This document shows positions 13,869-55,545 of a stretch of 64,000 nt of DNA, piece by piece. Below the pieces are notes generated by a model, which ran no database searches, was not told the DNA's origin, and worked only from the letters and a program-made list of their open reading frames with translations. The translations under genes and the position numbers were made by a program. The stretch covers positions 79,595 through 143,594 of the forward strand of contig MOEB01000001.1 of the NCBI GenBank assembly GCA_001939945.1, in the 5' to 3' direction. The DNA is from Aerophototrophica crusticola. GTDB lineage: Bacteria > Pseudomonadota > Alphaproteobacteria > Azospirillales > Azospirillaceae. Within the stretch, counting starts at the first letter, position 1. Each line of letters begins with the position of its first letter.

Positions 13869-13870
13869 TT

Positions 13871-14440: not shown

Positions 14441-14881
14441 TCAGCCCAGCGCCCCGGGCTTGAACCGCACGGCTTCCAGTCCCACGGCGGCGCAGTCGGG
14501 GTACACGTCGGGCTTCTCGGTCCGGACCCGGGCGCCCAGCACGGACGGGGGCGCCAGGCACAGGGACAGGATGCCGTCCAGCAGCGTCTCTTGCAGGTTG
14601 AAGTGGCCGCGGCCGGCCAGGTCCATGATCTCCCGCCGCAGGAAGTCATAGTCCAGAACCTCGGCGATCTCGTCCGCCCCGGGGCTCTCGGGCTTCAGGA
14701 ACAGCTCGATGTTCACCAGGATGCGCTGCGGTCCGCGCTTCTCGAAGTCGTGGATGCCGATGTTCACCTTCAGGGCGAAGTCGCGCAGATAGATGGCCCG
14801 AACCTCGCCCCAGCGGGACAGCAGCATCAGCCGGGGCAGGTCCAGGCCCGGCGTACCCGAAGCGGGGGTCACGGTCATCAT
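14441..14881 (-). CDS. folB: Dihydroneopterin aldolase-type protein
   Basis: A protein of about 146 residues of the FolB/DHNA family, which in folate synthesis splits 7,8-dihydroneopterin into 6-hydroxymethyldihydropterin and glycolaldehyde. Visible are IYLRDFALKVNIGIHDFEK, QRILVNIELF, a VLDYDFLRREI segment and the C-terminal E-K-P-D region (RTEKPDVYPDCAAVGLE). The start overlaps the SDR stop (TGATG), with AAGGAG just upstream; the ATG at 14878 has the better spacing and 14881 the classical overlap. Coupling to a FolM-like reductase supports a pterin role. Confidence 0.85.
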   Translation of the reverse strand: MMTVTPASGTPGLDLPRLMLLSRWGEVRAIYLRDFALKVNIGIHDFEKRGPQRILVNIELFLKPESPGADEIAEVLDYDFLRREIMDLAGRGHFNLQETLLDGILSLCLAPPSVLGARVRTEKPDVYPDCAAVGLEAVRFKPGALG

Positions 14882-40582: not shown

Positions 40583-40618
40583 CTAGGCCTGTTTCCAGTC
40601 TGCTGGAAACAGGCCTAG
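40583..40618. terminator. Bidirectional terminator between convergent genes
   Basis: Perfect 16-bp stem (40583-40598 with 40603-40618) with a TCTG loop. On the minus strand it is followed by CATTTTG. The stop codon of the kinase gene (40615-40617) lies inside the stem. Confidence 0.85.
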
Positions 40619-43434
40619 GGCGCGGCGGCCATCACGTCGGCGGGGATGCGCACCCGGACGGCGGTGCCCTGGCTCGGTTGGCTTTCCACCTCGATGCTGC
40701 CGCGCAGGCGCTGGGTCACCTGGTTGAAGGCCACATGCAGGCCCAGCCCCATGTTCCCGGCCGCCCGCCGGGTGGTGAAGAACGGGTCGAAGACCTTGGG
40801 CAGGATATCGGCGGGGATGCCGGCCCCGTCGTCGGCCACGGTGATCTCCACCCCGCCGTCGGGAAGGGCGTCGGCGGTCACCCGGGCGGTGCCGGCCTTG
40901 CCCGGCGGATAGGCATGGTCCGCCACGTTGGCCAGCAGGTTGGTCACCACCTGGGCCAGGGCGCCGGGGAAGGTGTCCATCTGGATGGGTGGCGCGCCGT
41001 CGAATTCCACCCGCACCCCCGCCTGCACCAGCCGCGGCCGCACCAGCCCCAGCAGCTCCTTCAGATAGTCGCCCAGGTCGAAGATGCGGCGGTCATCGTT
41101 GCTGCGGTCGACCGCCACCTCCTTGAAGCTGCGCACCATGTCCGCGGCGCGCACCACGTTCCGCTGGGCCAGCCCCGCCAGCTCCACCCCGGTCTGCAGG
41201 TGCTCCGCCAGGCTGGTGCGGGTCAGCACGCCACCGTTCAGGGTCTCCTGCATCTGCCTCATGCTGTCGTGCAGCAGCGAGACGGCCGACAGGGTGACGC
41301 CCAAGGGCGTGTTCACCTCATGCGCCACGCCGGCGACCAACTGGCCCAGGGCGGCCATCTTCTCCTGCTGCACCAGCCGGCCCAGGGCGTCGCGCAGGTC
41401 GGTGACGGCCCGGTCCAGTTGCCGGTAGGCTTCCGCGTTGGCCAGGGCGATGGCCCCATAGGCGCAGAGCGTGCGGAACACCTGCAACTCGCGCGGGCCA
41501 TAGGCGGATTCCCGGTCGGACTGCACCGACAACACGCCCAGCACCCGCTCCCCCACCACCAGGGGCCGGTAGAGGGCGGTGCGCATGGGCCGGGTGCCGG
41601 GGATGGTCAGGCGCGGCTCGTCCTCCCTGAAATCCTTGTGGATCTCCCGGTTCTCCCGCACCGCCTGGGCCGCCAGCGTGTCGGATGTCAGCAGGTCATG
41701 ACGGGGCGGCAGCCGCCGCCCGTCCTCCATGCGGAAGCGGACATCCAGCTTCCCGCCCTCCTTGTCCAGCAGGCCGATGAACAGGCTGGGGGCGTGCAGC
41801 AGGTCGCCGATGTGGCGGTACAGGGCCTGGAACACCGACTCGCTGTCCAGGGTGGCCGTGATCTCCTGGCCGATGCGGCCCAGCAGTTCCAGCGTGGTGT
41901 TGGCGTGGTCCAGGGCGGCGGCGCGGGCGGCCTCGGCGCTGGCCAGCAGGCGGTGGTGCTCCGCGTCGGCCCGCGCCCGCTCCGTGTCGAAGCGCACCTG
42001 CATGGCCTGCACGCGGTTGCGGCCCTGGCGCTCATACAGGTTGCCCAGGGCGTCGCGGGCCCGCCGCTCATAAGCGAGGGCCTTGCGGAGGTCGCCTGCC
42101 AGCTCTTGGTCGTGGGACAGCTCGGCGAACAGGTCGGGCGGCAGCTGGTATCCCGCCATCTCCTCCCCGATCGCCACGGCCCGCTCCAACAGGCCGGCGG
42201 CGGCGCGGACGTCGCCTTGGGCGCGGTGGATGCCGGCCAGCACCTGCAGCACCCGGATCTGGTGGAACCGGTCGCCCCGGTCCGCGAACAGGGAGAGCGC
42301 CCGCTCCGCCGCCGCCTTGGCCTCGTCCAGCCGGTCCAGCGCCAGCAGGGCCGCGGCCATGCCGCGCATGGCCGAGTGCTCCGTGTCCGGGTGGCCCAGC
42401 CGGACGGCCCCGGTGCAGGCCTTCTCATACCAGGGCAGGGCCGTGCCCGCGTCGCCCATGGCAAGGCAGAGGTCGCCATAGGCGATGCAGGTGATGACAT
42501 AGCGGCGCACGCCCTGCACCTTGGCCAGGTATGTCAGCGCCTCCTCGAACAGGTGCCGGGCGCGGGCATGGTGCCCCAGGCTGGTGGTCGTCTCCGCCAT
42601 GGAGGAAAGCGCGGTGCCCAGGGCCTCCGGCCAGCCGGTCGGCTCCGCCAGGGCGAAGGCCTTCTCCTTCCACTCCAGGGCCGTGGGCAGGTCGTTGAGG
42701 TTGGCGTAAGCGGCACCCGTCGTGGCGGCCAAGGTGATGCTCAGCCAGCGGCAGCCGGCCACCACGGCGTTGTCGAAGGCCTCCTGCCAATGGGTGATGC
42801 AGCCGGTGAAGTCGCTGCGCTGGAAGGCGATGCCACCCAGGAAACAGGCCACGTGGGCCCGCACCGCCGGATGTTCCAGGGTGTTGGCCTCCCGCAGCGG
42901 CGCGGTCCACCGGACCTCCGCCTGTTCCAGGGTGCCATAGCTCTCAAGCCGTCCCAGCCAGGCATCGGCAATGGCCGCCCGCACCGGGTCGTCACCGCGA
43001 CGGTAGAGCTGTCGGGCTTCCTCCAGCCGCCGGGTGGCGGCGGGCATGTCCCCGCGCAGCAAGGCGATGTCGGAACTGCAGAAACAGGAATCACCCTCGC
43101 CTACCGGGTCGGCCAGGGCGGCGAACCCGGCCCGGGCGGCGGCGACCAGCCCCTCGGCGGCGCCAAGGTCGACATGCAGGCGGGCCACGCATTCCGCCCG
43201 GGTCAGGGAAGCGCGGGCGCGGGCCAGGGCAAGGGTGTCTTCGGACAGGGGGGCCATGTCCAGCAGCCGCTCCACCTCCCCCAGCAGGGACAGGCAGCGC
43301 TGGGTATCCCGCTGGCGCAGGTACCAGGCCAGGTGCAGCAGGTCGGACAGCCGTCCGGCGGTGTCACCGTCCTGGCGCCCGCACCGTCCTTCCAGCTCGG
43401 CAACCCTGGCAGGCAATCCGAAAAGGTCGACCAT
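40615..43434 (-). CDS. TPR-GAF sensor histidine kinase
   Basis: A 939-residue soluble kinase. Residues 1-500 are helical TPR-like repeats (for example LFEEALTYLAKVQG, ALPWYEKACTGAVRLG, AKAAAERALSLFADRG). A coiled linker follows, then a GAF domain (about 560-690, FIGLLDKEGGKLDVRF to YRPLVVGERVLGVLSVQ). HisKA has its His near 705 in LVAGVAHEVNTPLG; the HATPase has NLLANVADHAYP, DDGAGIP and GNMGLGLHV. No membrane segment and no receiver. The ATG at 43434 is preferred; the open frame runs 45 codons further up. It lies 131 nt downstream of the borosin-like gene on the same strand, past a hairpin; no response regulator is adjacent. Confidence 0.9.
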   Translation of the reverse strand: MVDLFGLPARVAELEGRCGRQDGDTAGRLSDLLHLAWYLRQRDTQRCLSLLGEVERLLDMAPLSEDTLALARARASLTRAECVARLHVDLGAAEGLVAAARAGFAALADPVGEGDSCFCSSDIALLRGDMPAATRRLEEARQLYRRGDDPVRAAIADAWLGRLESYGTLEQAEVRWTAPLREANTLEHPAVRAHVACFLGGIAFQRSDFTGCITHWQEAFDNAVVAGCRWLSITLAATTGAAYANLNDLPTALEWKEKAFALAEPTGWPEALGTALSSMAETTTSLGHHARARHLFEEALTYLAKVQGVRRYVITCIAYGDLCLAMGDAGTALPWYEKACTGAVRLGHPDTEHSAMRGMAAALLALDRLDEAKAAAERALSLFADRGDRFHQIRVLQVLAGIHRAQGDVRAAAGLLERAVAIGEEMAGYQLPPDLFAELSHDQELAGDLRKALAYERRARDALGNLYERQGRNRVQAMQVRFDTERARADAEHHRLLASAEAARAAALDHANTTLELLGRIGQEITATLDSESVFQALYRHIGDLLHAPSLFIGLLDKEGGKLDVRFRMEDGRRLPPRHDLLTSDTLAAQAVRENREIHKDFREDEPRLTIPGTRPMRTALYRPLVVGERVLGVLSVQSDRESAYGPRELQVFRTLCAYGAIALANAEAYRQLDRAVTDLRDALGRLVQQEKMAALGQLVAGVAHEVNTPLGVTLSAVSLLHDSMRQMQETLNGGVLTRTSLAEHLQTGVELAGLAQRNVVRAADMVRSFKEVAVDRSNDDRRIFDLGDYLKELLGLVRPRLVQAGVRVEFDGAPPIQMDTFPGALAQVVTNLLANVADHAYPPGKAGTARVTADALPDGGVEITVADDGAGIPADILPKVFDPFFTTRRAAGNMGLGLHVAFNQVTQRLRGSIEVESQPSQGTAVRVRIPADVMAAAP

Positions 43435-43529
43435 GAGATCCCGCACGTGGCCCCCGCCACCTCTACCACGTTCGAGTACGGGCGCGCGATAATCTTGACG
43501 ACGGCACGCGCCGTCCCGTTGCCAGCGCG

Positions 43530-43555
43530 CCCCGGGCCCGTCACCGGGCCCGGGG
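43530..43555 (-). terminator. Hairpin after the borosin-like gene
   Basis: Perfect 10-bp stem CCCCGGGCCC/GGGCCCGGGG with a 6-nt loop, 10 nt beyond the stop of the gene at 43566. No U tract. Confidence 0.55.
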
Positions 43556-43565
43556 GTGGCTGCCG

Positions 43566-45245
43566 TCACTCCTTCGTGTCCGGCTCCGTGGAAGACAGCT
43601 CCGCGGCGTCCTGCTCGGCAGAGGACAGCTCCGCTGACGACAACTCCGCTGACGACAACTCCGCAGAGGAAAGCTCCGACGTGGACAGTTCTGCGGTGGA
43701 CAGCTCCGCCGCGTCCTGTTCGGCACTGGACAGTTCCGCGGCATCCTGCTCCGTGCTCGACAGCTCCGCGGCGTCCTGTTCGACGCTGGACAGCTCCGAG
43801 GAGGAGAGTTCCGAAGTCGACAGCTCCGCCGCGTCCTGTTCGGCGCTCGACAGCTCAGCAGCATCCTGCTCGGCACTGGACAGCTCCGCCGCGTCCTGTT
43901 CAGCGCTGGACAGCTCCGAGGAGGAGAGTTCCGATGTCGACAGCTCCACCGTGGTCACGCTGCTGGACAGTTCCGCGGCATCCTGCTCCGGCCCGGACAG
44001 CTCCGCCGCGTCCTGTTCGTTGGACGACAGCTCCGCCGCGTCCTGCTCGCTCGACGACAGCTCGGCGGCATCCTGCTCGGTGGAGGACAGTTCGGCGGCG
44101 TCCTGCTCCCTCGGCCCTTCGGCCTTAGTCACCTGGGCGGACACGGCGTGCAGGGCACTGGATGTGCGGCCCACCAAGGCCTTGCGCTCCGCCTCGGTCA
44201 GGCCGGGGTACAGCAGGGTGAAGGCGGCCGGATCGCCGCGGAACGCGGTCTCCAACGCCGGGCTGCCGGCCATCTGGGCCAGCACCCGGTACAGGGCCTT
44301 GGACACGCCGCGGTTCCGCATCGTGGGCTTCTGGCTGTCCAGCTTGGCGATGGCCTCCAGCTCGAAGGTGCCATATTCGTCGCCGCGCCGCGGGGCCGGG
44401 GTGCCGCCCTTCAACAGGGCGGACAGGCCCAGCTTCTCCGCCATGGCCGGGTCGATGGCCAGCGTCTCCTTGGGCGGGATATATAAGCTGCAGGCATAAT
44501 GGATGCCCGCCAGCACCTTCGGGTCCCGATAGGCGCCCAGGGGGCGGCGGGTCACCTGCGGGTCGGTGCCGGGGAAGGTGGCGCCGACGTAATGCACGCA
44601 GGGATGGTCGGGGCCGTACGTCTCGATCAGCCGCTCGAACAGCACCGCGCGCTTGGAGTTCTTGAAGCCGCCATAGGAGAAATAGGCGTCACCGACGGAG
44701 CCCACCTGGAGCAGCACCACATGGCCGGACGTGACCAGCGGCCGGTCACGCAGCAGGTAGTCCGTCGCCTCCAGGATCTGGCAGCCCTGGAAGCTGGGAT
44801 CGATGCGCAGGTCGGCAAACAGGCAGTCGGTGGAGGAGATGCCCGGCAGCATGGCCGTGGCATGGCCCTCCTTGCGGGCGATGGTCAGGGCACGGCGGGC
44901 CGGGTTCACGAAATAGCCGGGGTGCCCGTAGAAGACGGCGACCACCGTCTTGCCCTGGCGCACGGCGCGCAGGATCACCTCGGCCATCTGCACATAGGTC
45001 ACGCTGCGGCGCTTGTCCTCCCCGTACAGCACGGACAGGTTGGTGGCGTTGGGGTTCAGGTCACGGATGTAGGCGGCGGTGATGCCGTCCGGCACGCTGT
45101 AGAACACCGCGTCCGCATCCCGGATGTGGCCGATGGCTTCCTGCGTCAGGTGTGACACGGCCCGGATACCGGTGCCGACGACCGTTAGGCTGCCCAACCG
45201 GGTCCCGGCAGCGACCGGGCGCACGGACTCGATGGAATTCGGCAT
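43566..45245 (-). CDS. Fused borosin-type alpha-N-methyltransferase and precursor with repeated core
   Basis: A 559-residue protein. Residues 17-270 are a tetrapyrrole-methylase-fold SAM enzyme of the borosin subfamily: LTVVGTGIRAVSHLT, SVPDGITAAYIRDLNPN, RRSVTYVQMAEVIL, FYGHPGYFV, MLPGISSTDCLFADLRIDP and the EATDYLL segment. Arg80 and Tyr84 keep the R-x3-Y spacing of the catalytic pair in the fungal OphMA family, and Tyr106 precedes GHPG as there. Residues 313-370 are helical (LYRVLAQMAGSP, FRGDPAAFTLLYPGLTEAER) and resemble a borosin precursor binding domain. Residues 380-552 hold twelve EQDAAELS units plus shorter ELSS(A/S) units. Borosin enzymes methylate backbone amides of a peptide carried in cis or by a partner; here the cis arrangement is implied. 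Substrate residues, cleavage and product are unknown. GGGGGGAAGG precedes the ATG. Confidence 0.85.
   Translation of the reverse strand: MPNSIESVRPVAAGTRLGSLTVVGTGIRAVSHLTQEAIGHIRDADAVFYSVPDGITAAYIRDLNPNATNLSVLYGEDKRRSVTYVQMAEVILRAVRQGKTVVAVFYGHPGYFVNPARRALTIARKEGHATAMLPGISSTDCLFADLRIDPSFQGCQILEATDYLLRDRPLVTSGHVVLLQVGSVGDAYFSYGGFKNSKRAVLFERLIETYGPDHPCVHYVGATFPGTDPQVTRRPLGAYRDPKVLAGIHYACSLYIPPKETLAIDPAMAEKLGLSALLKGGTPAPRRGDEYGTFELEAIAKLDSQKPTMRNRGVSKALYRVLAQMAGSPALETAFRGDPAAFTLLYPGLTEAERKALVGRTSSALHAVSAQVTKAEGPREQDAAELSSTEQDAAELSSSEQDAAELSSNEQDAAELSGPEQDAAELSSSVTTVELSTSELSSSELSSAEQDAAELSSAEQDAAELSSAEQDAAELSTSELSSSELSSVEQDAAELSSTEQDAAELSSAEQDAAELSTAELSTSELSSAELSSAELSSAELSSAEQDAAELSSTEPDTKE
43590..44108 (-). 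repeat. In-frame tandem repeat encoding the EQDAAELSSx tail
   Basis: About 519 bp coding residues 380-552 of the fused protein. Twelve EQDAAELS units occur, mostly at a 10-residue (30-bp) period, with blocks of 5-residue ELS(S/T)x units between units 5-6, 8-9 and 11-12. Codons vary among units (for example GAC/GAT-free QDAA codings with alternate Ala and Ser codons), so the units are not fresh identical copies. The period is five residues throughout. Confidence 0.92.
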
Positions 45246-45449: not shown

Positions 45450-46817
45450 TCAGGTCTCGACCTGGGGCCGGTAACGGCTGGGCACCAGGCCGAAGGTCCA
45501 GGACACGCCGGCATGGGCGCTGGGCGTGGCCGGCGGGACGCGCAGCCAATAAGGCTTGTAGCTGCCGTCCGGCTCGGGGGAGGAGTTGATGACGCGGACC
45601 ATCACCAACGGCTCCCCGTCGAAATCATCCACCCGCCACAGCTCGCCGGTGCCGTCCTGCCCCACCTTCCGGCCCAGTTCCCGCATCACCTTGTCCGGGC
45701 CATAGGTCTGCAACAGGGCGCGGCGGATGCCGGGGTCGGGCTCCTGGCGGATGTGGAAGATGGTCAGCTCTTCCGTCCCCAGCAGGATGGCCGGGTCGGC
45801 GGCGAAGCGGCCGTCCACGGCGAACAGAGTGGACCCGTCCTTCCAGCATAGGGCCGGGCCGTCGGTCCGGTGGAAGCGACCGAACTCGTCCAGGTGCACC
45901 TCCGACGGCGGCTCCAGGGCCACCGCCACCTTGGCGAAGGCCCACAGCCCGTCCACCCGGTAGACCAGGTCGGTGAAGGCGGCCAGCTTGCGCTCCGCGT
46001 CGCCGCCGGCCTTGGGGTCGGGGGCGACGCGGACCAGCCGGTCCACGGCATAGAAGGCGATGGGCGTCTCGAAGCTGGGCGGGCAGGCGATGGCCAGCAG
46101 CCGGACGAAGGCCGCCAGCCGGTCACCCAAATCCAACCCATAGGGCCGCGGCCGGATGGCCGGCCGGGCCTTGTCCAAAAGCACGTGGAAGGTCCGGCTC
46201 AGCCGCGGCGCCACCGACCGGCCGAACAGGAAGGGTTGGCCGACCCGGCTTTCCCCCCGCTGCGCCGCCAGCAGGATGGAGGCGGGCAGGGCCAGCAACC
46301 CGCCCAGCATGGCCAGGGGGGAGACCTGCACCATGGGGCCGCTGCTCAGCAACCCCACCGCCATCAGGGCCCCGGCGATGGCCACCGGAACCCCCACCAG
46401 CACCAGGGGCGACTTGGCTTCCTGCAAGGCGCCCGACAGCATCAGGGCGAAGGTCCAGAAGGCCACGAAGGCCAAGCCCAGCACCACGAAGGCGCCCCGC
46501 GGCAACTCCACCGCCGCCACCCCCTCCCGCGCCGGCAGGCCCAGGGTGGAGGCGACGATGGCCAGCAACGCGACCAGCATCAGCAGCCAGGGACCGGCCC
46601 GGCGCCAGCCGGTCCGGCTCAGGATGCCGCGGGCCTCCCGTGGGCCGCCGGCCCACAGGATGGTGCGCGGCGGGGGGAGTCCGGCAGCCTCATAGGCGGC
46701 CCGGATGCTTTCCTCCGCCTCCGCCTTCTCAAAAGGTTGCCGCCACGCCAGGCGCTTCCGCCAGTCGTCATGGCTGGGCCAGGGGACGGCCTCCCCCGGC
46801 AATCCCCCGCGCGCCAT
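45450..46817 (-). CDS. Membrane protein with DUF6745-like C-terminal domain
   Basis: A 455-residue protein. Residues 20-62 are cytosolic helices (AYEAAGLPPPRTILWAGGPRE). Four membrane segments follow at about 76-94, 108-131, 137-158 and 165-185. The soluble C-terminal part (about 230-440) has PPSFETPIAFYAVDRLVRV, FHRTDGPALCWKDGSTLF and IRRALLQTYGPDKVM, which resembles the DUF6745 pattern as I know it. That domain usually appears in proteins encoded beside small GEVTGHAH-type proteins and repeat proteins. Function unknown. The upstream gene ends 5 nt before its start, so the two form an operon; the borosin-like gene follows after 204 nt. Confidence 0.75.
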   Translation of the reverse strand: MARGGLPGEAVPWPSHDDWRKRLAWRQPFEKAEAEESIRAAYEAAGLPPPRTILWAGGPREARGILSRTGWRRAGPWLLMLVALLAIVASTLGLPAREGVAAVELPRGAFVVLGLAFVAFWTFALMLSGALQEAKSPLVLVGVPVAIAGALMAVGLLSSGPMVQVSPLAMLGGLLALPASILLAAQRGESRVGQPFLFGRSVAPRLSRTFHVLLDKARPAIRPRPYGLDLGDRLAAFVRLLAIACPPSFETPIAFYAVDRLVRVAPDPKAGGDAERKLAAFTDLVYRVDGLWAFAKVAVALEPPSEVHLDEFGRFHRTDGPALCWKDGSTLFAVDGRFAADPAILLGTEELTIFHIRQEPDPGIRRALLQTYGPDKVMRELGRKVGQDGTGELWRVDDFDGEPLVMVRVINSSPEPDGSYKPYWLRVPPATPSAHAGVSWTFGLVPSRYRPQVET

Positions 46818-46822
46818 GGGCG

Positions 46823-47155
46823 TCAGTCCGCGATGGCCCGGGGCCGCGCCTTGGGCTCGTACTCGCGCTGGCGCACCACCTCATAGGTGCCGGGCGGTAC
46901 CTCGATGGTGTGGTGCTCCTCATGGCTCAGCGCCGTCGGCTGGTCGCCCAGCACCTGGATGTAGCTGCGGCCGCCGCCATCGTCGCGGAACATGACGACC
47001 CGGTTGGGCGACATGGCGTGGGCGTGGCCCGTCACCTCACCATAGGCCAGCACGACGCGGCCCTCGTCGGGGCGGACCGGAAGCGCCGTCGGCGGCAGGC
47101 CGTCTACGGCAGTGATCAGGACGTCACCTTGGCGGAACTGGACAGGCATGGCCAT
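46823..47155 (-). CDS. Small GEVTGHAHA/HEEH protein
   Basis: A 110-residue soluble protein with a beta-rich pattern: FRQGDVLITAVDGLP, GRVVLAYGEVTGHAHAM, ALSHEEHHTIEVPPGTYEVV and RQREYEPK. Conserved His/Glu residues (GHAHA and HEEHH) suggest a metal site in a cupin-like or SH3-like barrel; this is inference. I know this type as a frequent neighbour of DUF6745 proteins. GGGAG precedes the ATG at 47155. It is the first gene of the presumed operon. Confidence 0.75.
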   Translation of the reverse strand: MAMPVQFRQGDVLITAVDGLPPTALPVRPDEGRVVLAYGEVTGHAHAMSPNRVVMFRDDGGGRSYIQVLGDQPTALSHEEHHTIEVPPGTYEVVRQREYEPKARPRAIAD

Positions 47156-47414
47156 GACGCATCTCCCATGGGATGGACGGGCGGAACGCTTGTCGGCCGG
47201 CATATCGGTCGGACACAGGAACAACAGCTTGGGGCCCGTTCGGTGACAATGCCCACCGGTGCACTGTGGGTAAGCCCGTCGCCTGAACGGGCGGGCTGCC
47301 GGAACCGCCAAAGGTCTTGCCGGGCCTAGGTCGGGCTGCGGGGGCGTAGGACGGGGTGGCAACCGGTCCTGCTGCCGGGAACCTCTCGCCCCTCACGTCC
47401 CGTCCGCTCTCACT

Positions 47415-47452
47415 GTTTCCCCCGCGAAGGTGTTTTCCTTCGCGGGGGAAAC
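47415..47452. repeat. REP-like hairpin
   Basis: Perfect 16-bp stem (GTTTCCCCCGCGAAGG with its complement at 47437-47452) and a TGTTTT loop. Same core as the doublet at 13871-13958. The surrounding gap 47156-47670 has no supported gene. Confidence 0.75.
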
Positions 47453-47670
47453 GGTAGGGTTTGCCCGACGCGGTGAGCTATCGACTGCGGTATCAGCTAG
47501 GACAGCATATCGGGCTCGTCGTCCCGATCCGCTCACCGACGGCCAACAAGGGCGGGCAAATCATGGACAAAAATCCTAGCCTCTGCCATTCTACAACCGT
47601 CGCCCATCCAAGGGCGCCAGTTCTTGCACATCGTGAATCCGGCCAATCCGCCTGTCCAATCCGCACCCCT

Positions 47671-47810
47671 TAACTTTACCCGGCCCGAACCCGGCAAAGT
47701 TTGTCACTTTAAGGCGCAAAATCCAGCATTTTCAAACGCATATAACTTTACCATGGTAAAGTTAGGCGTCAACTTAAGGTAAACTTAGTCAAGCTAAGGT
47801 GAAGTTTGTC
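47671..47810. repeat. Hairpin-palindrome-phased-repeat element, diverged copy C
   Basis: AT-rich, about 140 bp. It holds an inverted pair AACTTT/AAAGTT near 47672-47701, then CTTTAAGGC, a spacer of about 30 nt, a perfect 22-bp palindrome (47743-47764, TAACTTTACCATGGTAAAGTTA), GCGTCAACTTAAG and two tandem 20-bp units (47768-47807). The order matches elements A and B, but the repeated word is different. Confidence 0.6.
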
Positions 47811-47841
47811 AAGCGGCGCCGGGGGTGTCCCGGCGCCGCTT
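47811..47841 (-). terminator. Hairpin after the C-methyltransferase gene
   Basis: Perfect 13-bp stem AAGCGGCGCCGGG/CCCGGCGCCGCTT with a 5-nt loop, 8 nt beyond the stop at 47850. No clear U tract, but it closes the polysaccharide transcript. Confidence 0.65.
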
Positions 47842-47849
47842 GCCATGTC

Positions 47850-49112
47850 TCAGGCCGCCGCGATGCCCGGTTCCACCGCCTGCGGGCGGGCCAGGTGGGG
47901 TTCGGGGATCGGCAGGATGAAGGTCCCACCCGCCTCGGCATAGGCCCGCTGCTGCTCCATGATCTCGTCGGCGAAGTTCCAGGCCAGGACGACCAGGTAA
48001 TCCGGCCTCTCCTCCAGCAGCGCCTCCACCGGGCGGATGGGAAGCTGGGCGCCGGGCATCAGCTTGCCCTGCTTGTGGGTGTTGCGGTCCACGACGAAAT
48101 CCAACTCCTTCGCCGTCAGCCCGGCATAGTTCAGCAGGGTGGCGCCCTTGGCCGCCGCGCCATACGCGGCGATGCGCTTGCCCTGGCCGCGAAGGCTGTC
48201 CACCAGGGCCAGCAGAGCCTCCTTCACCCCCGCCACCCGGCGGGCGAAGTCCTGGTAATAGCGGGCCTCGTGCATGCCCAGCGCCCGCTCCTCCGCCATC
48301 AGGGCGGAAAGGCGCTCCGACTTGCCCGGGTTCTTGCTGACGGTCAGGCGCAGGGACCCGCCATGGATGTCCAGCCGCACCACGTCGTTCAGGTGCAGCC
48401 CGTGACGGGCGAACAGCGGCTCCAGCGCCGTCAGGGAATAGTAGAAGACATGCTCATGGTAGATGGTGTCGAAGGCGCATTCCTCGATCAGGTCGCGCAG
48501 GTAGGGGAACTCGAACTCGGCGATGCCGTCGGCCTTCAGCAGGGCCGCGAAGCCCGCCACGAACTCGTTGATCCCGTCCACATGGGCCAGCACGTTCTTG
48601 GCCAGGATCACGTCCGCCGCCTTGCCTTCGGCGGCCAGCCGCTCGCCCAGGGTGCGGTTGAAGAAATCCTCCACCGTGGGGATGCCGATGGCCCGGGCCG
48701 CGGCGGCCGGGCCGCTGGCGGGGTCGATGCCCAGCACGGGGATGCCCGCGGCGGCGAAGTTGCGCAGCAGGTAGCCGTCGTTGCTCGCCACCTCCGCCAC
48801 CAAATTGTCCGGCCCCAGTTTCCGGCGCTCGATCAGCTCCAGCGCGTGGCTGCGGCTATGGGCCAGCAGGGCGGGGGAGAAGCTGCTGAAATACGGGTAG
48901 TCCCGGCCGAACAGCACCTCCGGCGGCACCGTCTCCGTCACCTGCACCAGGGCGCAAGTACCGCAGAAGCAGACATCCAGCGGGAACAGCTCCTCCGGCT
49001 GGCCGGCCTTGTCCGGCTCCACCAGCGCGTTGGCCAGGGGCTGGGCGCCCAAATCCAGGATGGGCGTCAGGTTCGGGCTGCCACAGGACCGGCACTCGGT
49101 GATACGGCTCAT
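47850..49112 (-). CDS. Sugar C-methyltransferase-like SAM enzyme
   Basis: A 420-residue protein with three parts. An N-terminal zinc knuckle has CRSCGS (8-13) and CFCGTC near 49. A Rossmann SAM domain has VAEVASNDGYLLRNF and the catalytic-region HVDGIN and YHEHVFYYS. The C-terminal domain has KRIAAYGAAAKGATLLNY. This is the layout of NDP-hexose 3-C-methyltransferases (TylCIII-like) that branch deoxysugars. GAGGAA precedes the ATG. It is the last gene of the run rfbF-SDR-rfbC-DUF4910-methyltransferase. Confidence 0.88.
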   Translation of the reverse strand: MSRITECRSCGSPNLTPILDLGAQPLANALVEPDKAGQPEELFPLDVCFCGTCALVQVTETVPPEVLFGRDYPYFSSFSPALLAHSRSHALELIERRKLGPDNLVAEVASNDGYLLRNFAAAGIPVLGIDPASGPAAAARAIGIPTVEDFFNRTLGERLAAEGKAADVILAKNVLAHVDGINEFVAGFAALLKADGIAEFEFPYLRDLIEECAFDTIYHEHVFYYSLTALEPLFARHGLHLNDVVRLDIHGGSLRLTVSKNPGKSERLSALMAEERALGMHEARYYQDFARRVAGVKEALLALVDSLRGQGKRIAAYGAAAKGATLLNYAGLTAKELDFVVDRNTHKQGKLMPGAQLPIRPVEALLEERPDYLVVLAWNFADEIMEQQRAYAEAGGTFILPIPEPHLARPQAVEPGIAAA

Positions 49113-49174
49113 TGGGTTCCTCGTCGGATTGACGTCAGTGGTCGGTAGTGTGGGTCGGTTCGCTCTACCTGCGT

Positions 49175-49262
49175 CCCCAGCGAAAGCAGGGGCCCACAGT
49201 TCTTCACCGCCAGTCCCGCTGGGTTCGGGTCAAAGAAAAGTGGGCCCCTGCTTTCGCAGGGG
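49175..49262. repeat. REP-like doublet
   Basis: Two inverted 23-bp units (49175-49197 and 49240-49262, 22 of 23 matching; CCCCAGCGAAAGCAGGGG core) separated by 42 nt. The spacing equals that of the doublet at 13871-13958. It lies between the methyltransferase and DUF4910 genes. Confidence 0.75.
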
Positions 49263-49273
49263 AGGCAAACTCT

Positions 49274-50596
49274 TCATCGGCGCGTATCGGGGACAACCTC
49301 CAACAACCCCGCCTCTTCGCAAGCCCTCGCCGCAGCCCTGACCTTGGCGAAGGGCATCCTGGCCCGCTCCGCCATGTCCAGCAGGCGGTGCTTCCCATCC
49401 GCCAGGTTCAGCACCCAGAGCACGGCCATCTGGTCCAGCCCGCCCTGGTCCTTCTGCCCGGCGATCTGCCGGTACAGCCCCCGGCGGCCAAGCTGGGGCT
49501 CGCCCTTGCCGCCGTCGGTACGGGCGTAGGTCACGTCCGCGTCCAGCAGGTCCAGCACCTCGGCCAGCACGGACAGGCTCTCCGCCAGGGCCTCGGGCCG
49601 GATGAAGTCCAGATTGTCGGCAGAGGTGTGGTACTCGGGGAAGGTCCCATGGACGCCCCGCATGAAGCACCCCACCGGCAGGTCATAGCCGGGGGAACAA
49701 TATTGCCGCTCGTCATAGCCATAGGGGCTGAAGGGCAGGATGCCGTGCTCCACCCCGCGGGCCGCCAGGACATGGGCCACGGCCCGGTCGATGGCGGCGT
49801 CCTCCCGCCGGCTGCGCTTGTAGTGGAAGGGCCCGGGGTCGCCGATGCAGCTCAGCGTCAGCCCGTGCCGCACCCGGTCCACCGCCGCCTCGTTCCGGGC
49901 CAGCCAGGTGATGGCCCCGATGGTGGCCGGCAGGAACACGAACCGGACCCCCAGCCGCCGCTTGGGCCCGTTCAGCAGCCGCTGCGCCAGCGCGGTCGCT
50001 ACCACCAAGCCCGACAGATTGTCGTTGGCCAGTTGCGGGTGGCAGACATGGAGGGAGACCAGGATGTCCCCCTCCGTCGTGCCGGGGACATGCAACTCCC
50101 CATAGGTCAGCCGCCCCGGCTCCAGGGTACTGTCCACCACCACCCGGTATTCCGGGTCGGTCATAGCTTCCCAGGTTCGGTGGGCCATGCAGAAGCCCCA
50201 GGTGTCCGCATAATAGGCGGTGCGGTAGGGGATCAGGTCCGGCTGCTGCGGCAGGGTGTGGACATGCTTCGCCAGAGCCTCCCGCGACACGACCATGTCG
50301 ATGGGGCGGCTGTAGTTCAGGATGTGCAGGGCGTGGTCGGCAAAGTCCACCACCCGCCGCCCGTCCAGGGTCTCGATCCAGGCGGCGCGGATGTTCCACT
50401 CCCGCGGCACCTCCCAGTCCAGCACGGGCGTGCCGGTGGGAACCTCCACGATCTCCAGCGGCACCTCCCGCGCCACCCTGGCCAGGGTGCGGCGGACGCC
50501 GTCGCCGGTCAGGCTGCGGCAGATGGGGTACAGCTCGGCGGCCAGGGCGTGCATGCCCTCACCGGTCAGGGGCGGCTTGGCGAAGCTTCCGTCCAT
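49274..50596 (-). CDS. DUF4910 aminopeptidase-like protein
   Basis: A 440-residue protein with the DUF4910/DUF2172 layout: LYPICRSLTGDGVRRTL, DWEVPREWNIRAAWIE, then a peptidase-like core with LVSLHVCHPQLANDNLSGL, FLPATIGAI, SPYGYDERQYCSPGYDLPVG and FPEYHTSADNLDFI. It ends in a winged-helix domain (residues 380-440). His/Asp/Glu at metal positions of M28-like enzymes are present. Such proteins recur in polysaccharide loci; the substrate is unknown. It starts 3 nt after the rfbC-like stop. Confidence 0.88.
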   Translation of the reverse strand: MDGSFAKPPLTGEGMHALAAELYPICRSLTGDGVRRTLARVAREVPLEIVEVPTGTPVLDWEVPREWNIRAAWIETLDGRRVVDFADHALHILNYSRPIDMVVSREALAKHVHTLPQQPDLIPYRTAYYADTWGFCMAHRTWEAMTDPEYRVVVDSTLEPGRLTYGELHVPGTTEGDILVSLHVCHPQLANDNLSGLVVATALAQRLLNGPKRRLGVRFVFLPATIGAITWLARNEAAVDRVRHGLTLSCIGDPGPFHYKRSRREDAAIDRAVAHVLAARGVEHGILPFSPYGYDERQYCSPGYDLPVGCFMRGVHGTFPEYHTSADNLDFIRPEALAESLSVLAEVLDLLDADVTYARTDGGKGEPQLGRRGLYRQIAGQKDQGGLDQMAVLWVLNLADGKHRLLDMAERARMPFAKVRAAARACEEAGLLEVVPDTRR

Positions 50597-50599
50597 GGC

Positions 50600-51160
50600 T
50601 CACCCCGCCGACACGCCGAAGCCCGGCATCCGCCCGGCCAGCGGCGGCCAGGACAGGTCCTTGGGCGAGATGCGCTCCACCGGCAGCGGCCAGGCCAGGC
50701 CCAGGGTCGGGTCGTCGAAGCGGCAGCCGTCATAGAGGTCGGGCACATAGGCCGCCCCCATCAGGTACTCCACCCCGGCCTCCTCGCCCAGCAGCTGGAA
50801 GCCGTGGGCCAGCCCCGGCGGCAGGTACAGCATCACCCCGGCCTCCGCCGACAGCTCCATGGCGAAGCTCTGGCGGAAGGTGGGGCTGTCGGGTCGCAGG
50901 TCGGCGATCACGTCATGGACCCGGCCCGAGGTCAGCCGCACCACCTTGGCGTCCTGCTGCGGGGCCCGCTGGAAGTGCATGCCCCGCAACGTGCCCCGGC
51001 CATGGGTGACGGAGCTGTTGCCCTGCACCGGGGTGAAGTCGATGCCGGCCTCCCGGAAACTGTCGGCGCACCAGGTGCGGGCGAAGCCGCCGCGCTCGTC
51101 CCGGTGCACCGTCAGCCGGACCAGCTTCGCCCCGTGGATGGGCAGGTCCTCGAACTTCAT
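50600..51160 (-). CDS. rfbC: dTDP-4-dehydrorhamnose 3,5-epimerase-like protein
   Basis: A 186-residue cupin of the RmlC family. DERGGFARTWCAD, QGNSSVTHGRGTLRGMHFQ (with the catalytic His region), and LPPGLAHGFQLLGEEAGVEYLM are conserved. In this locus it more likely epimerises a CDP-4-keto-6-deoxyhexose than dTDP-rhamnose precursor, since no rml genes are present and rfbF is. It overlaps the SDR gene stop by 4 nt. Confidence 0.85.
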   Translation of the reverse strand: MKFEDLPIHGAKLVRLTVHRDERGGFARTWCADSFREAGIDFTPVQGNSSVTHGRGTLRGMHFQRAPQQDAKVVRLTSGRVHDVIADLRPDSPTFRQSFAMELSAEAGVMLYLPPGLAHGFQLLGEEAGVEYLMGAAYVPDLYDGCRFDDPTLGLAWPLPVERISPKDLSWPPLAGRMPGFGVSAG

Positions 51161-52227
51161 TCCGCGGCCTGCCGGCTGGCCGCGGCGGCCGGGGTCTCCG
51201 GCATGTCCAGCCAATGGAACAGCGGGTCGAGCTGGCCGGAGCCCACCAGCAGCTTCAGGGCATTCAGCCGGGTGAAGGCCGGTGCCTCGAACATCTCCCG
51301 GGTCATGCCGATGCGGCTGAACACCTGGTAGAGCTGCGCCGCCCCGCGCTCCGCCGACCATTGGCACCGGAAGTCAGGCAGGTGCTTGCGGATCTTGGAG
51401 AAGTCCACGCGGTAGCTGCGGTTGTCCGGCCCCGGCGCGCCGAAGCTGATGGTGCAGCCCGGGAAGGCGGCGGCGACCATCTCCGCGATCTCCGACACGC
51501 GGTAGTTCTGCCGCTCGTCGCCGACGTTGAAGATCTGGCCCTTCACGTCCTCCTTCGGCGCACGCAAGGTGCACTCGATGGCCTGGCAGATGTCCAGCAC
51601 GTGGACCAGCGGCCGCCAGGGCTTGCCGTCGCTGGTCATGGCGATCTTGCCCGTGGTCCAGGCCAGGCCCGACAGGTTGTTCAGCACGATGTCGAAGCGC
51701 ATGCGCGGGCTGGCGCCGAAGGCGGTGGCGTTGCGCAGGCAGGTGGTGACGAAGCTGTCCTCCACCAGCTCGGCAAGGCCCTGCTCGCAGCGGACCTTGC
51801 ACTCGGCGTACGCGGTCTGCGGGTTGGGCGCCGACTCCTCGGTCTTGATGTCGTCGTTGCCGGCCCCGTAGACGGAGCAGGAGGAGGCATAGACGAACCG
51901 CGGCACCCCCGCCTTCTTGGCGGACTGGGCCACGTTCATGCTGCCCCGGAAATTGATGTCGTAGGTGATCTCCGGGTTGTGGGCGCCCAGCGGGTCGTTG
52001 GACAGCTCCGCCAGATGGACCACGGCGTCGAAGCCCTCCAGGTCCTTGGGCGTCACCCGGCGGATGTCGCGGGTGATGACCCGCGGCCGATCCTCCAGGT
52101 CGTCGAACAGCCAGCCGCCGCGATAGAAGCCTGCGTCCAGCCCCACCACGTCATAACCGCGCTTCATCAGGTAGGGGGTCAGCACTGCGCCGATATAGCC
52201 GTCGGCCCCGGTCACCAGGACTTTCAC
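51157..52227 (-). CDS. NAD-dependent sugar epimerase/dehydratase
   Basis: An extended SDR of about 356 residues. The nucleotide motif is GADGYIG; SSCSVYG carries the active-site Ser region, and the YxxxK is YAECK. GTG at 52227 is chosen because AAGGGAGC sits 6-7 nt upstream, and MKVLVTGADGYIG is then a standard N-terminus; an ATG at 52248 would add seven residues. It acts on a nucleotide sugar made from the rfbF product. Coupled to the rfbC-like gene. Confidence 0.88.
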   Translation of the reverse strand: MKVLVTGADGYIGAVLTPYLMKRGYDVVGLDAGFYRGGWLFDDLEDRPRVITRDIRRVTPKDLEGFDAVVHLAELSNDPLGAHNPEITYDINFRGSMNVAQSAKKAGVPRFVYASSCSVYGAGNDDIKTEESAPNPQTAYAECKVRCEQGLAELVEDSFVTTCLRNATAFGASPRMRFDIVLNNLSGLAWTTGKIAMTSDGKPWRPLVHVLDICQAIECTLRAPKEDVKGQIFNVGDERQNYRVSEIAEMVAAAFPGCTISFGAPGPDNRSYRVDFSKIRKHLPDFRCQWSAERGAAQLYQVFSRIGMTREMFEAPAFTRLNALKLLVGSGQLDPLFHWLDMPETPAAAASRQAAE

Positions 52228-52277
52228 GGGGAATGCTCCCTTCGTCATCACATGCGTGTCGGTGGGGAAGGGGGGCG

Positions 52278-53096
52278 TCAGACCGCCCGCATCCGGGGGG
52301 CTGCTGCCGGCATGGCCGGTTCCTTGCCCCAGACCTTCCAGGGCGCGTCGCCGCCCTTCCACAAATTCTCCAGCACCATCTTGTCCCGCAGGCTGTCCAT
52401 GGGCTGCCAGAAGCCATGGTGGCGGAAGGCCTGGAGCTGGTTGGCGGCCACCAGCCTCTCCAGCGGCTCCCGCTCCCAGACGGTGCTATCATTGTCGATG
52501 AAGTCGATCACCTTGGGCTCCAGCACGAAGAAGCCGCCGTTGATCAGGCCACCATCCTCCGGCCCCTTCTCGCGGAAGCCGTGGACGATGGGGTCGTGGG
52601 GCAGCAGGTGCAGGGCGCCGAACCGGCCCGGCTGCTCCACGGCGGTGACGGTGGCCCAGCGGCCGCCCTCCTTGTGGTGCCGCACCAGGGTGCCGATGTC
52701 GATGTCCGCCACTCCGTCGCCATAGGTCAGGCAGAAGGTGTCGTCCAGCAGGTGGGCGACGCGCTTCAGGCGCCCGCCCGTCATGGTCTCCTGGCCCGTG
52801 TCCACCAGGGTGACACGCCAGGGCTCCACCTCCCGAGGGACAATCTTCATGCTGTTCTGGGCCAGGTCGAAGACCACGTCACCCGTCGTCAGCATGAAGT
52901 CGCGGAAGTACTGCTTCAGCATCTCGCCTTTGTAGCCACAAAGGATCACGAAGTCATTGAAGCCGTAATGCGAGTAGATCTTCATGATGTGCCAGATGAT
53001 CGGTCGTCCGCCGATCTCCACCAGCGGCTTCGGCCGCACCTGGCTTTCCTCGCTGATCCGTGTGCCGTAACCACCGGCCAGGATGACAACCTTCAT
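52278..53096 (-). CDS. rfbF: Glucose-1-phosphate cytidylyltransferase
   Basis: A 272-residue enzyme making CDP-glucose. It shows MKVVILAGGYGTRISEE, RPKPLVEIGGRPIIWHIMK, ILCGYKGEMLKQYF, the metal motif in LTYGDGVADID, and GGFFVLEP. It commits glucose to CDP-deoxysugars. First gene of the minus-strand sugar run. Normally rfbG (CDP-glucose 4,6-dehydratase) accompanies it; no protein of that length and type is in the window. Confidence 0.94.
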   Translation of the reverse strand: MKVVILAGGYGTRISEESQVRPKPLVEIGGRPIIWHIMKIYSHYGFNDFVILCGYKGEMLKQYFRDFMLTTGDVVFDLAQNSMKIVPREVEPWRVTLVDTGQETMTGGRLKRVAHLLDDTFCLTYGDGVADIDIGTLVRHHKEGGRWATVTAVEQPGRFGALHLLPHDPIVHGFREKGPEDGGLINGGFFVLEPKVIDFIDNDSTVWEREPLERLVAANQLQAFRHHGFWQPMDSLRDKMVLENLWKGGDAPWKVWGKEPAMPAAAPRMRAV

Positions 53097-53550
53097 AATG
53101 TCCCCCGGAGTCTTCCCGTGTTGGGCGTATCCCGCTACATAGCTCAAGGTCAGGGCCGCGCGAACGCCGTGAAAGCCGTAACACCCTTCGCCAAGCGGCA
53201 CTTCTTCACTTACGAACTCACTGATAAAACCGATGCCAGATCGGTGGTATTACTCAGTTGATACTTATGCGCGGTGACTGATGTGTTGGTCCCGCGCTCG
53301 GAAGGGGGTGCCCGGTCGGCCATTCACCCCTTCCCGTCGCGAAGCATGAACGCGACGGCCCCCGCGGCGGCACAAGCGCGGCCGGGTGTGGGGTCCATGA
53401 TTTGGAATCACCCCTTCCGGGCGGGGTGGCATGTCCGGCTGGCGAGTTAGGCCCATTCCGGGGCTTGCCCGATCGCCCCTGGCCGTCCAATCTCCTCGCG
53501 GGGTCACAGAAAGTGCACAAAGGGCGCAGAAGCGCCGCGGGGAGGCGTGG
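53097..53550. other. Intergenic region upstream of rfbF
   Basis: About 450 nt; no supported gene. The part at 53190-53280 is AT-richer and includes ACCGAT/ATCGGT, a small hairpin (53227-53244), probably promoter-proximal sequence of rfbF or the tail of the opposing transcript. Confidence 0.4.
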
Positions 53551-53739
53551 GTGGAAATGATGCTGCTGGCGGCGCTCGCCCTGCTGGGCGTCGTCTATTG
53601 GGTCTGCGCGGAATTGCGGGCCGCCATCGTGGTGGAAGACAGCCACACCATGTTCAGGCCCAGGCCCACCAGCCGGGTCAGCGGCCCTCCGCCGCCCGTG
53701 GGGGGCTCGTTGCCGTTGCAGCGGTCCGGACGGGCGTGA
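53551..53739 (+). CDS. Possible small membrane protein
   Basis: A 62-residue frame starting with GTG at 53551, preceded by GGAGG at 5 nt. Residues 4-19 (MLLAALALLGVVYWVCAEL) form one membrane segment, and the tail is Pro/Arg-rich. Its 3' end overlaps the end of the opposing asparagine-synthetase-like gene by 62 nt, which weakens the case. Confidence 0.3.
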   Translation: MEMMLLAALALLGVVYWVCAELRAAIVVEDSHTMFRPRPTSRVSGPPPPVGGSLPLQRSGRA

Positions 53740-55231
53740 CCCCCACCGCGGGGCCGTCCAGCAATCCCATCGCCATGTTCCGCAGCTCCCCGGCCGTGCG
53801 GCGGCCCTTCAGGGACCAGCGCTGAAGCCGGCGCTGCATGCGCGTCTCCATGGGCGGGTTCACCGGGAATTCCGCCAAGCCGCGGCCGGCCAGGGCGATG
53901 GCTTGGCGCTGCACCGTGCCCGTGCGCCGGTCCTCCAGCGGGGCGGCCAGCATCAGGTCGTGGTGGTAACCGCAATTGACCACCTGCAGGGCGCAGCCCT
54001 CCAGCATGTCCGACGACTGCTCCGCCGCCGACAGCCAGCCCGCCAGGCGCTGGTCGCGGTAGAACTGGTTGCCCAAGCCATAGGGCCGCGGCCCGTCCAC
54101 CGCCCAACGCAGCCAATCCCGCATCTGCGTCCTCAGCCAGGGGCGGCTGCCGAAATCGCCGTAAGACTCCAGCAGCCCGTCCGGGTCGGCCAGCGCCTCC
54201 TCCCAGCCCAGGCCGCGCAACCGGTCCTCCATCCGTTCCCGCCCCACCTCGAAGCCGCCGCCGCGGACCAGGGCGGTGCCGGGGCCCATCCAGTCATACA
54301 TGCCGCGGGCATAGAAGCTGCGGTCCGCGTCGCCCATGTTGCGGAACGTGTGGGCATCGAACCGGCGCTGGCGTGACAGGTTGAAGGCCCCGCGGGGCAC
54401 CGCGTCCCAGCGCAGCCCGCAATGGCGGGCGATCTCCGGCGGCAGCACCTTGTCCGCCAGGGGCATCAGGGGGAAGAGCTGGATCATGGTGTCCACCCGG
54501 ACCCCCACCTCCAGCGCCGCCGCCAGCAGGGTGCGGCTGTCCAGGCCCGCCGTCAGGGCCAGGGCCAGGCGGTCCTGCACGGACGCCGCCGACTTGAAGC
54601 ACTGGCCCAGGGAACGCAGCAGCATCTCCGCCAGCGCCCCCACCGGCTTCCCGGCGAAACGCTCCGGGTTCCAGCGGCTTACCCTGTGGACAGTGCCGTC
54701 CGACAGGCGCAGGGCCTGGTCCGGCAACAGCTTGCGCACGCCGACGATGCGGCTGTGGGGCGGCGGGAACCAGTTCATCCCATACCAGCCGATCCGCCGC
54801 TTCAGCACCGGCAACTCCGGCCGCAGCCCGTGGATCAGCGCCAGGCTGGTGGACACCAGGGTCCGACCGCCCGGGCCTGGCTGGTAGAAGATGCTCGCCA
54901 GGTTGGTGCTGTCCGCCAGCAGCCAGTCGCCGGTGACCAGCGTCCAGCGCCCCGACCAGGCATAGGCGGCGTCGGCCAGATCCTGCGCCGCGCGCGCTGG
55001 GGAAAGCTGGAAATCGTCCTGGTCCGGGTCCGCCAGAAGCGGTGTCCCCAGCAACAGGGCCGTGCCGCCCTGGCCGTCCGGCAGCCGCCGTACCCGCAGC
55101 CGCGGGCAGTGGGACAGCCATAGCCCGTTGCCCAGCCGTTCCGCCATCCACCCCTCCGCCTCACGGTGGCGATCGGTGTCGATGATGAATTGGCGCCGGT
55201 GGATGGGACCGGCGTCGGGCGGCGTCGGCAT
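53678..55231 (-). CDS. Asparagine-synthetase-like ATP-pyrophosphatase protein
   Basis: A 517-residue protein. The C-terminal half has the PPi-loop LALTAGLDSRTLLAAAL near residue 218. The N-terminal region shows the beta layers of an Ntn-type glutaminase fold (GRWTLVTGDWLLAD) but no Cys follows the initiator Met, so it cannot use glutamine as AsnB does. Such proteins in polysaccharide loci may amidate or otherwise activate a carboxylate with ATP; the substrate is unknown. The ATG at 55231 has GGGGAAG upstream. Confidence 0.78.
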   Translation of the reverse strand: MPTPPDAGPIHRRQFIIDTDRHREAEGWMAERLGNGLWLSHCPRLRVRRLPDGQGGTALLLGTPLLADPDQDDFQLSPARAAQDLADAAYAWSGRWTLVTGDWLLADSTNLASIFYQPGPGGRTLVSTSLALIHGLRPELPVLKRRIGWYGMNWFPPPHSRIVGVRKLLPDQALRLSDGTVHRVSRWNPERFAGKPVGALAEMLLRSLGQCFKSAASVQDRLALALTAGLDSRTLLAAALEVGVRVDTMIQLFPLMPLADKVLPPEIARHCGLRWDAVPRGAFNLSRQRRFDAHTFRNMGDADRSFYARGMYDWMGPGTALVRGGGFEVGRERMEDRLRGLGWEEALADPDGLLESYGDFGSRPWLRTQMRDWLRWAVDGPRPYGLGNQFYRDQRLAGWLSAAEQSSDMLEGCALQVVNCGYHHDLMLAAPLEDRRTGTVQRQAIALAGRGLAEFPVNPPMETRMQRRLQRWSLKGRRTAGELRNMAMGLLDGPAVGVTPVRTAATATSPPRAAEGR

Positions 55232-55545
55232 GGGTGTTCTTCCCCTGTTGGCTTTCTGCTTCTCCGGAAGGTGCCGCCGGCGCCCCGGCCGCAGGGGCGG
55301 GGCGGGCAGGCGCCCCCACAAACAGGCGACACCCGGTTTTGGGCAAGGGGACCGGCGTGGTAGCCCGGCCGCGCCCCGGGGCGCCCCCAAGCCCCCGCCG
55401 CTGCCCAGGCGGGCACGGCTATGATGCCGGCGCCGGATGTTTCGAATTCGACCCGAAATGCGTTCCCGGCTGTTAGGGCGGGGACGGGGTGTGCCCGTCC
55501 GGTTGGAAGGGTCCCCGATTGGACGGGGGAGGCATGGGGAACGGA

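Follow-up and report, generated by a model that had tools for sequence, protein, structure and literature searches.

A bacterial fused borosin with a repetitive acidic tail adjoins a sensor histidine kinase gene in Aerophototrophica crusticola

Results

A predicted fused borosin gene and a kinase gene lie side by side

We analysed 64,000 nucleotides of contig MOEB01000001.1 of Aerophototrophica crusticola (assembly GCA_001939945.1), hereafter called the window. Its minus strand carries a gene for a predicted fused borosin, in which an alpha-N-methyltransferase domain, a clasp and a repetitive tail form one chain, and directly downstream of it a gene for a sensor histidine kinase (Table 1). Among the 11 neighbouring proteins scanned, on the left side as far as 40.6 kb, there was no exporter, and the sole peptidase-like protein, encoded 4 kb away, was one with DUF4910 that matched Peptidase_M28 below threshold. 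This protein belongs to the upstream stretch at 45450-56592, where a DUF6745 gene is followed by genes likely to concern sugars or surface polysaccharides (C-methyltransferase, DUF4910, dTDP-sugar isomerase, epimerase, nucleotidyltransferase and glycosyltransferase), among which we saw no link to the borosin. An antisense open frame of 1273 aa on the plus strand (40678-44499), which spans the kinase and the repeat array, is taken as an artefact of GC-rich codon structure.

Table 1. Features of the borosin-kinase locus, in window coordinates
Feature	Position	Strand	Basis
Predicted fused borosin gene, 559 aa, ATG start	43566..45245	minus	ORF list; Pfam, PDB-chain and Foldseek matches
Alpha-N-methyltransferase domain, residues 17-270, TP_methylase fold	44436..45197	minus	Pfam PF00590 and OphMA-type/SonM matches
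Codons of Tyr74, Arg80 and Tyr84 (OphMA Y66, R72, Y76)	44994..45026	minus	Alignment, 8/8 invariant
Clasp / borosin-binding region, residues 300-372	44130..44348	minus	Profile searches; helices in AlphaFold2 model
Repeat tail, residues 380-553: twelve EQDAAELS units and ten further ELS five-mers	43587..44108	minus	Motif counts; Tandem Repeats Finder
GC-rich hairpin just past the borosin stop codon, no T run	43521..43564	minus	-36 kcal/mol; z of 110-nt stretch -2.5
Sensor histidine kinase, TPR-GAF-HisKA-HATPase	40615..43569	minus	Directly downstream of borosin

Enzyme and clasp match borosins

The Pfam family TP_methylase (PF00590) matches residues 20-226 of the window borosin with an E-value of 3.3e-20, and its best match among solved structures is dbOphMA, over residues 13-365 and hence over methyltransferase and clasp together. 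OphMA and MroMA come next, so that OphMA-type chains range from E 7e-79 for dbOphMA to 2e-75 (HMMER, PDB chains), and SonM is a weaker match (E 3e-41, residues 17-275). The best non-borosin methylase families in NCBIfam are YabN (E 1.4e-9) and CobI/CbiL (E 6e-4), although the comparison is a rough one because these E-values and that of dbOphMA stem from different libraries. An earlier note on this DNA, made from the letters alone, had called the enzyme a borosin-type SAM methyltransferase and had set beforehand the question of whether it lies nearer to the cobalamin-pathway methylases; these searches place it nearer to the borosins. Foldseek with an AlphaFold2 model likewise returned fungal borosins at ranks 1-42 (best E 3.2e-28), with SonM following at rank 43 and beyond. 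Since this model, built on 8 sequences, has only a modest mean pLDDT (57.7), we place more weight on the sequence match; a second model of residues 1-380, also built on 8 sequences, brought no improvement (mean pLDDT 59.7).

The HMMER alignment to OphMA runs without gaps through the active site and pairs Tyr74, Arg80, Tyr84 and Tyr106, the last within YGHPG, with OphMA Y66, R72, Y76 and Y98 (OphMA numbers are those of PDB titles, with the offset counted by hand), which agrees with where the earlier note had put Arg80, Tyr84 and Tyr106. The position of OphMA Y63 is held by Ser71. A closer bacterial reference is KchMA, a fused 'type III' borosin shown to methylate itself at up to 11 sites in its C-terminal part (PMC11395268). 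Of the seven active-site residues for which KchMA mutants were made, the window borosin has six (Y73, R79, Y83, Y105, S136 and Q179 become Tyr74, Arg80, Tyr84, Tyr106, Ser137 and Gln180) and the seventh, Y70, is Ser71, on a mapping by a constant offset of one made without the letters of KchMA itself; the same offset turns KchMA C49 into Ser50. All six residues are invariant in 8/8 aligned proteins. According to the accessible text of PMC11395268, KchMA lost much activity as R79A, Y83F or Q179A and nearly all as Y105A or S136A, was moderately less active as Y70A, lost little as Y73F and more as Y73A, and the heaviest loss in that scan came from replacing C49 by Ala.

A profile built on seven loci for residues 300-372 matches positions 290-367 of MroMA and OphMA-type chains (E 1e-4 to 6e-4), and profile-profile comparison aligns this region with SonA-like precursors over 43 columns (probability 83%, E 8.6e-6). 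The precursor profile recovers SonA itself at E 1.4e-21, and its further short matches to repeat proteins are taken as chance. In the AlphaFold2 model the region forms helices at residues 316-327, 329-337, 339-344, 351-359 and 362-369. These matches bear out the proposal that the helical segment at 313-370 is a borosin binding domain, and the SonA binding domain has been described as homologous to part of the OphMA clasp (PMC8429565). Judged by its sequence, the window protein is a bacterial fused borosin with a complete enzyme and clasp.

The repeat units are held within an array and differ between species

Twelve exact EQDAAELS units, the number given in the earlier note, lie between residues 380 and 551, the first starting at 380 and the last at 544, and the tail as a whole holds 22 ELS motifs at spacings of 10, 9 or 5 residues. 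Neither Lys nor Arg occurs from residue 380 to 552, so that trypsin would not cut the array. The array is not a product of chance, because Tandem Repeats Finder reports it independently (best score 454). Over the eight residues of the 12 units, which were picked by ELS-motif spacing and not by whole-unit identity (the anchor ELS itself thereby being fixed), synonymous sites differ by 0.548 (pS) and replacement sites by 0 (pN). Extended to ten residues, the same units give a pS of 0.573 and a pN of 0.107 (pN/pS 0.187), and all 22 five-mers give 0.53 and 0.152 (pN/pS 0.287). A fixed-register pN/pS of 0.737 was rejected as a register artefact, since the unit spacing shifts from 10 to 9 to 5, and the motif-anchored counts were used instead. 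The synonymous difference among units matches that between the enzyme parts of the window gene and its relative in genome G067 (0.543), so the units are old or their codons scrambled, with the protein sequence held. Arrays in 13 relatives show pN/pS values of 0 to 0.39, several of these arrays being short (3 to 8 units).

Between species the unit changes: ELNDAA with period 6 in G067, EQHET/EQHEA/EQHVT with period 5 (15) in G069, ATEEHD/ASEEHI with period 6 (12) in G071 and G075, NVSTEDVQDQ with period 10 in G065 and G062, VQEQNVSVED with period 10 in G060, EELNEHNDV with period 9 in G064 and PPSDTDLNVTENV with period 13 in G054. G071 and G075, whose enzyme parts are 96% identical, have their units in common and arrays of unequal length, and the borosin of G076 has no repeat array and yet retains the kinase. 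A unit that can change between species but is strictly kept within an array would suit a repeated core peptide or a binding motif, and not a spacer. In the tails of L009 and L011, a WDY[ML]LSA segment stands between two kinds of repeat and might be a processing or recognition site.

The cores of type III borosins have acidic residues alternating with other residues (PMC11395268). In the window tail acidic residues occur without such alternation, as the D/E lag-2 autocorrelation is 0.00 there and at most 0.09 in 16 relatives (17/17 tails), and for this reason we file the window protein as a fused borosin and not as type III.

A sensor kinase gene follows the borosin in every readable locus of this family

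At E 0.001 or better, 19/82 genomes of the order match the window borosin; 17 of these matches, the window included, cover most of the enzyme and clasp, G072 holds a fragment and G005 a weak match. Counting the window genome in both cases, 4/385 genomes of a class sample match at 1e-10 and 15/398 of a phylum sample at 1e-20. Eight named relatives from another collection comprise seven Niveispirillum, Azospirillum or unclassified alphaproteobacterial proteins at 64-69% identity and one from Trinickia at 43%.

We took 14 stretches from the order, 12 with relatives of the window borosin and two with a larger borosin-like protein. In 13/13 loci with surroundings (the 12 relatives and the window) the next gene on the same strand encodes a GAF-kinase. 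Shorter stretches of G059 (L030) and G072 show the kinase too, which gives 15/15 readable loci; the count excludes G070, G073 and G074 (3/18 genomes), where the contig ends inside the array. Shared ancestry inflates this count and accounts for part of the conserved neighbourhood. The base rates of such neighbours are low, at 2-3% of genes for about one gene per kilobase: the 6.06 Mb window genome contains 110 matches to HATPase_c and 26 to GGDEF, and the 4.4 Mb genome of G473 contains 54 and 52.

The furthest-upstream start of the window kinase overlaps the borosin stop by 4 bases, and similarity to its relatives runs from near 43446. Its HisKA match (23.0 bits) is under the cut-off of 26.9. 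TPR, GAF and HATPase_c were found by Pfam in the window and L041 kinases, the two scanned of seven, and the kinases of the window genus, G054 and G076 are related to the window kinase over 912-947 residues at 41-55%. The kinases of genus g11 carry a Reg_prop/Y_Y_Y propeller as input half (Pfam, L047; the other five are 69-99% identical), and a hydropathy scan found a membrane-like stretch in the L047 kinase and none in the window kinase. Within 110 nt 3' of the borosin stop, a hairpin of -19 to -46 kcal/mol is present in 13/13 loci, with z-values against dinucleotide shuffles of -0.9 to -4.6 (-2.5 or lower in 8/13). Given the GC-rich genomes, conservation of this intergenic hairpin is suggestive only; it would fit a borosin transcript more abundant than that of the kinase.

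In a search with the L041 kinase, G066 and G068, which belong to the window genus and have no borosin, seem to lack the linked kinase too. The best matches are in G072 (94%, on a contig that opens with the last part of the array and continues into the kinase), the window genome (55%), G066 (38%, transmitter only) and G068 (37%, to a full-length relative whose kind is also present in G072). A tree of transmitter halves needs three changes of the 'linked' label, compared with a shuffled mean of 10.3; it holds 12/13 linked kinases and 24 others, with L053 (a 98.7% copy of L047) out and L119 and L121-L124 unused, and keeps 436/1467 columns, some rows being over-long (1177 and 944 aa). The kinases of G054 and G076 do not group with the other linked kinases in one clade, so we rejected one unbroken kinase lineage travelling with the borosin and regard swaps or repeated recruitment as likelier. 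Between TPR and propeller kinases the transmitter halves are about 42% identical, and other kinases of the genome are no less similar to them (36-46%); a comparison of the TPR halves for common origin would mean little, as TPR repeats are too generic.

Other accessory genes differ among the loci, whereas the kinase is constant. L041 has MacB/FtsX-type permeases, with related genes in L042 and L009-L011, and L044 has an NHLM RiPP export trio, with related ABC genes in L043. The loci of g11 have ORFs related to a family 5 solute-binding protein and a second GAF kinase in 6/6 cases and to a RiPP radical-SAM enzyme gene in 5/6, the family of the latter having been checked in L047 only. NHLP-clan precursors lie beside the relatives in L047 and L050. 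As a separate observation, the NHLP-clan RiPP precursor (L047:13028-13294) and the RiPP radical-SAM C-methyltransferase beside the borosin (13688-15640) are both less than 7 kb from it, and two RiPP systems may share this island.

Split-type borosins adjoin signalling genes as well

Seventeen further loci were taken, 16 from the phylum sample and one (L081) from the class sample. All 15 with a stand-alone methyltransferase (phylum sample, L082-L096) adjoin a GGDEF or histidine-kinase gene. In 13 of them the methyltransferase is followed by a small ORF and then, in 10 loci, by a GGDEF protein and, in L085, L088 and L089, by a TPR hybrid kinase; the small ORFs are precursor-like by reading, and seven are in the profile that finds SonA. 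In L086 and L096 the GGDEF-match ORF lies on the other side of the methyltransferase, and no precursor-like ORF was seen. The GGDEF assignments were checked with Pfam for nine of the 10 genes and by a custom profile only for that of L095, and TPR repeats are found at E 0.001 in 5/9 scanned GGDEF proteins and in 3/3 TPR hybrid kinases. More GGDEF or kinase matches distant from the borosin, in L082, L084, L086, L088, L089 and L095, are expected from the genome numbers. The other two loci encode a fused 1174-aa protein (L080) and a 350-aa protein with a clasp-like end (L081), and with L013, L051, L052, L133, L134 and L135 they make up eight borosin loci that have no GGDEF or kinase match in the stretch examined.

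The link between borosins and GGDEF proteins is at least partly known already, because a GGDEF label appears in the Figure 1 legend of PMC11395268. No link to kinases or signalling was apparent in the titles and abstract openings of a set of borosin literature that lacks key borosin papers.

Discussion

We consider it likely that the window protein is a fused borosin that acts as a dimer, methylates its own repeats and forms, with the TPR-GAF histidine kinase, a conserved two-gene unit and a likely circuit. By analogy with OphMA, we infer that each chain of the dimer would feed its tail into the active site of the partner, where SAM would serve to methylate backbone amides in the EQDAAELSS repeats, Ala, Leu and residues like them being the probable sites, and that the methylated tail, whole or cut into short peptides, would most likely be part of a circuit in which it acts on the adjoining kinase or the kinase acts on it. 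The RiPP export, maturation and precursor genes beside relatives in L044, L047 and L050 also favour this reading; the kinase kept by G076 despite its missing array and the lack of an exporter among the neighbours scanned count against it. Self-methylation of the tail, as in OphMA and KchMA, is probable. Against it stand the serines at the positions of KchMA Y70 and C49 and the mostly polar and acidic character of the repeats; in the accessible text of PMC11395268, wild-type KchMA methylated some Asp and engineered KchMA no acidic residues.

Similar to the fungal borosins OphMA, dbOphMA and MroMA, the window protein joins methyltransferase, clasp and C-terminal segment in one chain, shares their active-site residues and is 37-41% identical to them over about 345-377 alignment columns (Foldseek). 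It differs from them in being bacterial, in its long repetitive acidic array, in the adjoining histidine kinase and in the Ser that replaces OphMA Y63. KchMA is likewise bacterial and fused, with the same active-site set except for Y70 and C49, but its core lies at residues 742-796, whereas the window array begins at 380. The earlier note had called the architecture unusual for a bacterial protein; enzyme, clasp and array do lie in one chain, but the claim was overstated, as fungal borosins and bacterial KchMA are fused too (PMC11395268). Beyond that note, the analysis brings in the sensor kinase downstream, the protein-level constraint on the units and tails that differ by species. The split borosins SonM/SonA and their relatives share with the window a homologous methyltransferase, a binding domain and, in the sampled loci, a signalling gene adjoining the methyltransferase, but their precursor is separate, small and free of repeats, and their partner is either a TPR hybrid kinase or a GGDEF protein.

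To our knowledge, little has been settled about what bacterial borosins do in nature. We read the product of the window borosin as tied to a dedicated sensor, and the pairing with a kinase gene hints that this product may be a signal. More speculatively, and on balance we hold this to be unlikely, many borosins of the Pseudomonadota could be signal modules in which the methylated tail or its peptides are the ligand of the adjoining sensor and the species-specific units private signals, made in many copies per chain. The partner sensors would then be a TPR-GAF kinase, a propeller-GAF kinase, a TPR hybrid kinase or a GGDEF cyclase, several of them with TPR. Such a frequent input module with differing outputs (kinase or cyclase) would fit the product as ligand better than the partner as gene regulator, since pathways are not usually regulated by GGDEF proteins. 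If true, this would be a new kind of protease-resistant peptide signal in bacterial signalling, and if the products act on the adjoining sensor, the role of borosins becomes testable in a two-gene system. What is new and testable is the pairing with a kinase, together with repeats that are strictly conserved and yet specific to species.

More ordinary than a ligand for the sensor is a RiPP natural product with a local regulator, the methylated repeats being cut to short antibiotic-like peptides and the kinase only regulating the cluster. Two-component regulators are common beside RiPP clusters, and the NHLM exporters, the MacB/FtsX-type permeases and the maturation genes of L047 would all suit such a product. 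However, these genes vary among loci where the kinase does not, the GGDEF protein next in 10 split-type loci would be an uncommon regulator of a pathway, and the neighbours scanned around the window gene include no exporter. We regard this explanation as possible but not as the one to prefer.

The tail might also not be a substrate at all, but an acidic disordered spacer or a pentapeptide-repeat solenoid, with an enzyme that methylates something else or is idle. The AlphaFold2 model gives the tail a pLDDT of about 30-43, and the tail resembles pentapeptide-repeat proteins in the five-residue register of its AELSS-like units (a register of the window species) and matches pentapeptide-type PDB chains, the best at 2.8e-12. 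Yet the family matches are all under their cut-offs, in Pfam (Decapeptide 28.6 bits against 45, Pentapeptide 13.9 against 38) as well as for the pentapeptide families of NCBIfam, and most relatives have periods of 6, 9, 10 or 13 (G069 with 5/15), which do not fit a five-residue solenoid and led us to reject it as a general explanation. Moreover, a spacer need not hold 12 identical units while synonymous sites differ by 55%, and the window tail occupies the place of the OphMA core. We therefore think it improbable that the tail is not the substrate. That the protein is a cobalamin- or siroheme-pathway methylase with a low-complexity extension can practically be dismissed, as it has the TP_methylase fold in common with those enzymes but matches dbOphMA at 7e-79, against 1.4e-9 or worse for other methylase families, and has a clasp.

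If the window protein does methylate its own repeats, the array would offer a dozen identical sites in a substrate that modifies itself, which would be useful for making N-methylated peptides.

Some further borosins came to light alongside. A plasmid search gave 20 records, none above 60% identity, and the best three had no kinase or GGDEF match in the stretch examined. Plasmids of Azospirillum lipoferum 4B and of Mycetohabitans endofungorum, a species associated with fungi, encode fused borosins (L133 and L134), each followed by a StrG-annotated gene. A second, larger borosin-like protein of about 1000 aa and 35-36% identity occurs in two genomes of the same genus (L051:5167-8208 and L052:4499-7396); it contains a hydrophobic stretch and a long run of Asp/Asn, matches a CFI-box weakly close to its C-terminus, and is adjoined by a cytochrome P450. 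By reading, the fused borosin of 1174 aa in L080 (4340-7864) has a membrane-like segment, and its C-terminal tail is strongly acidic.
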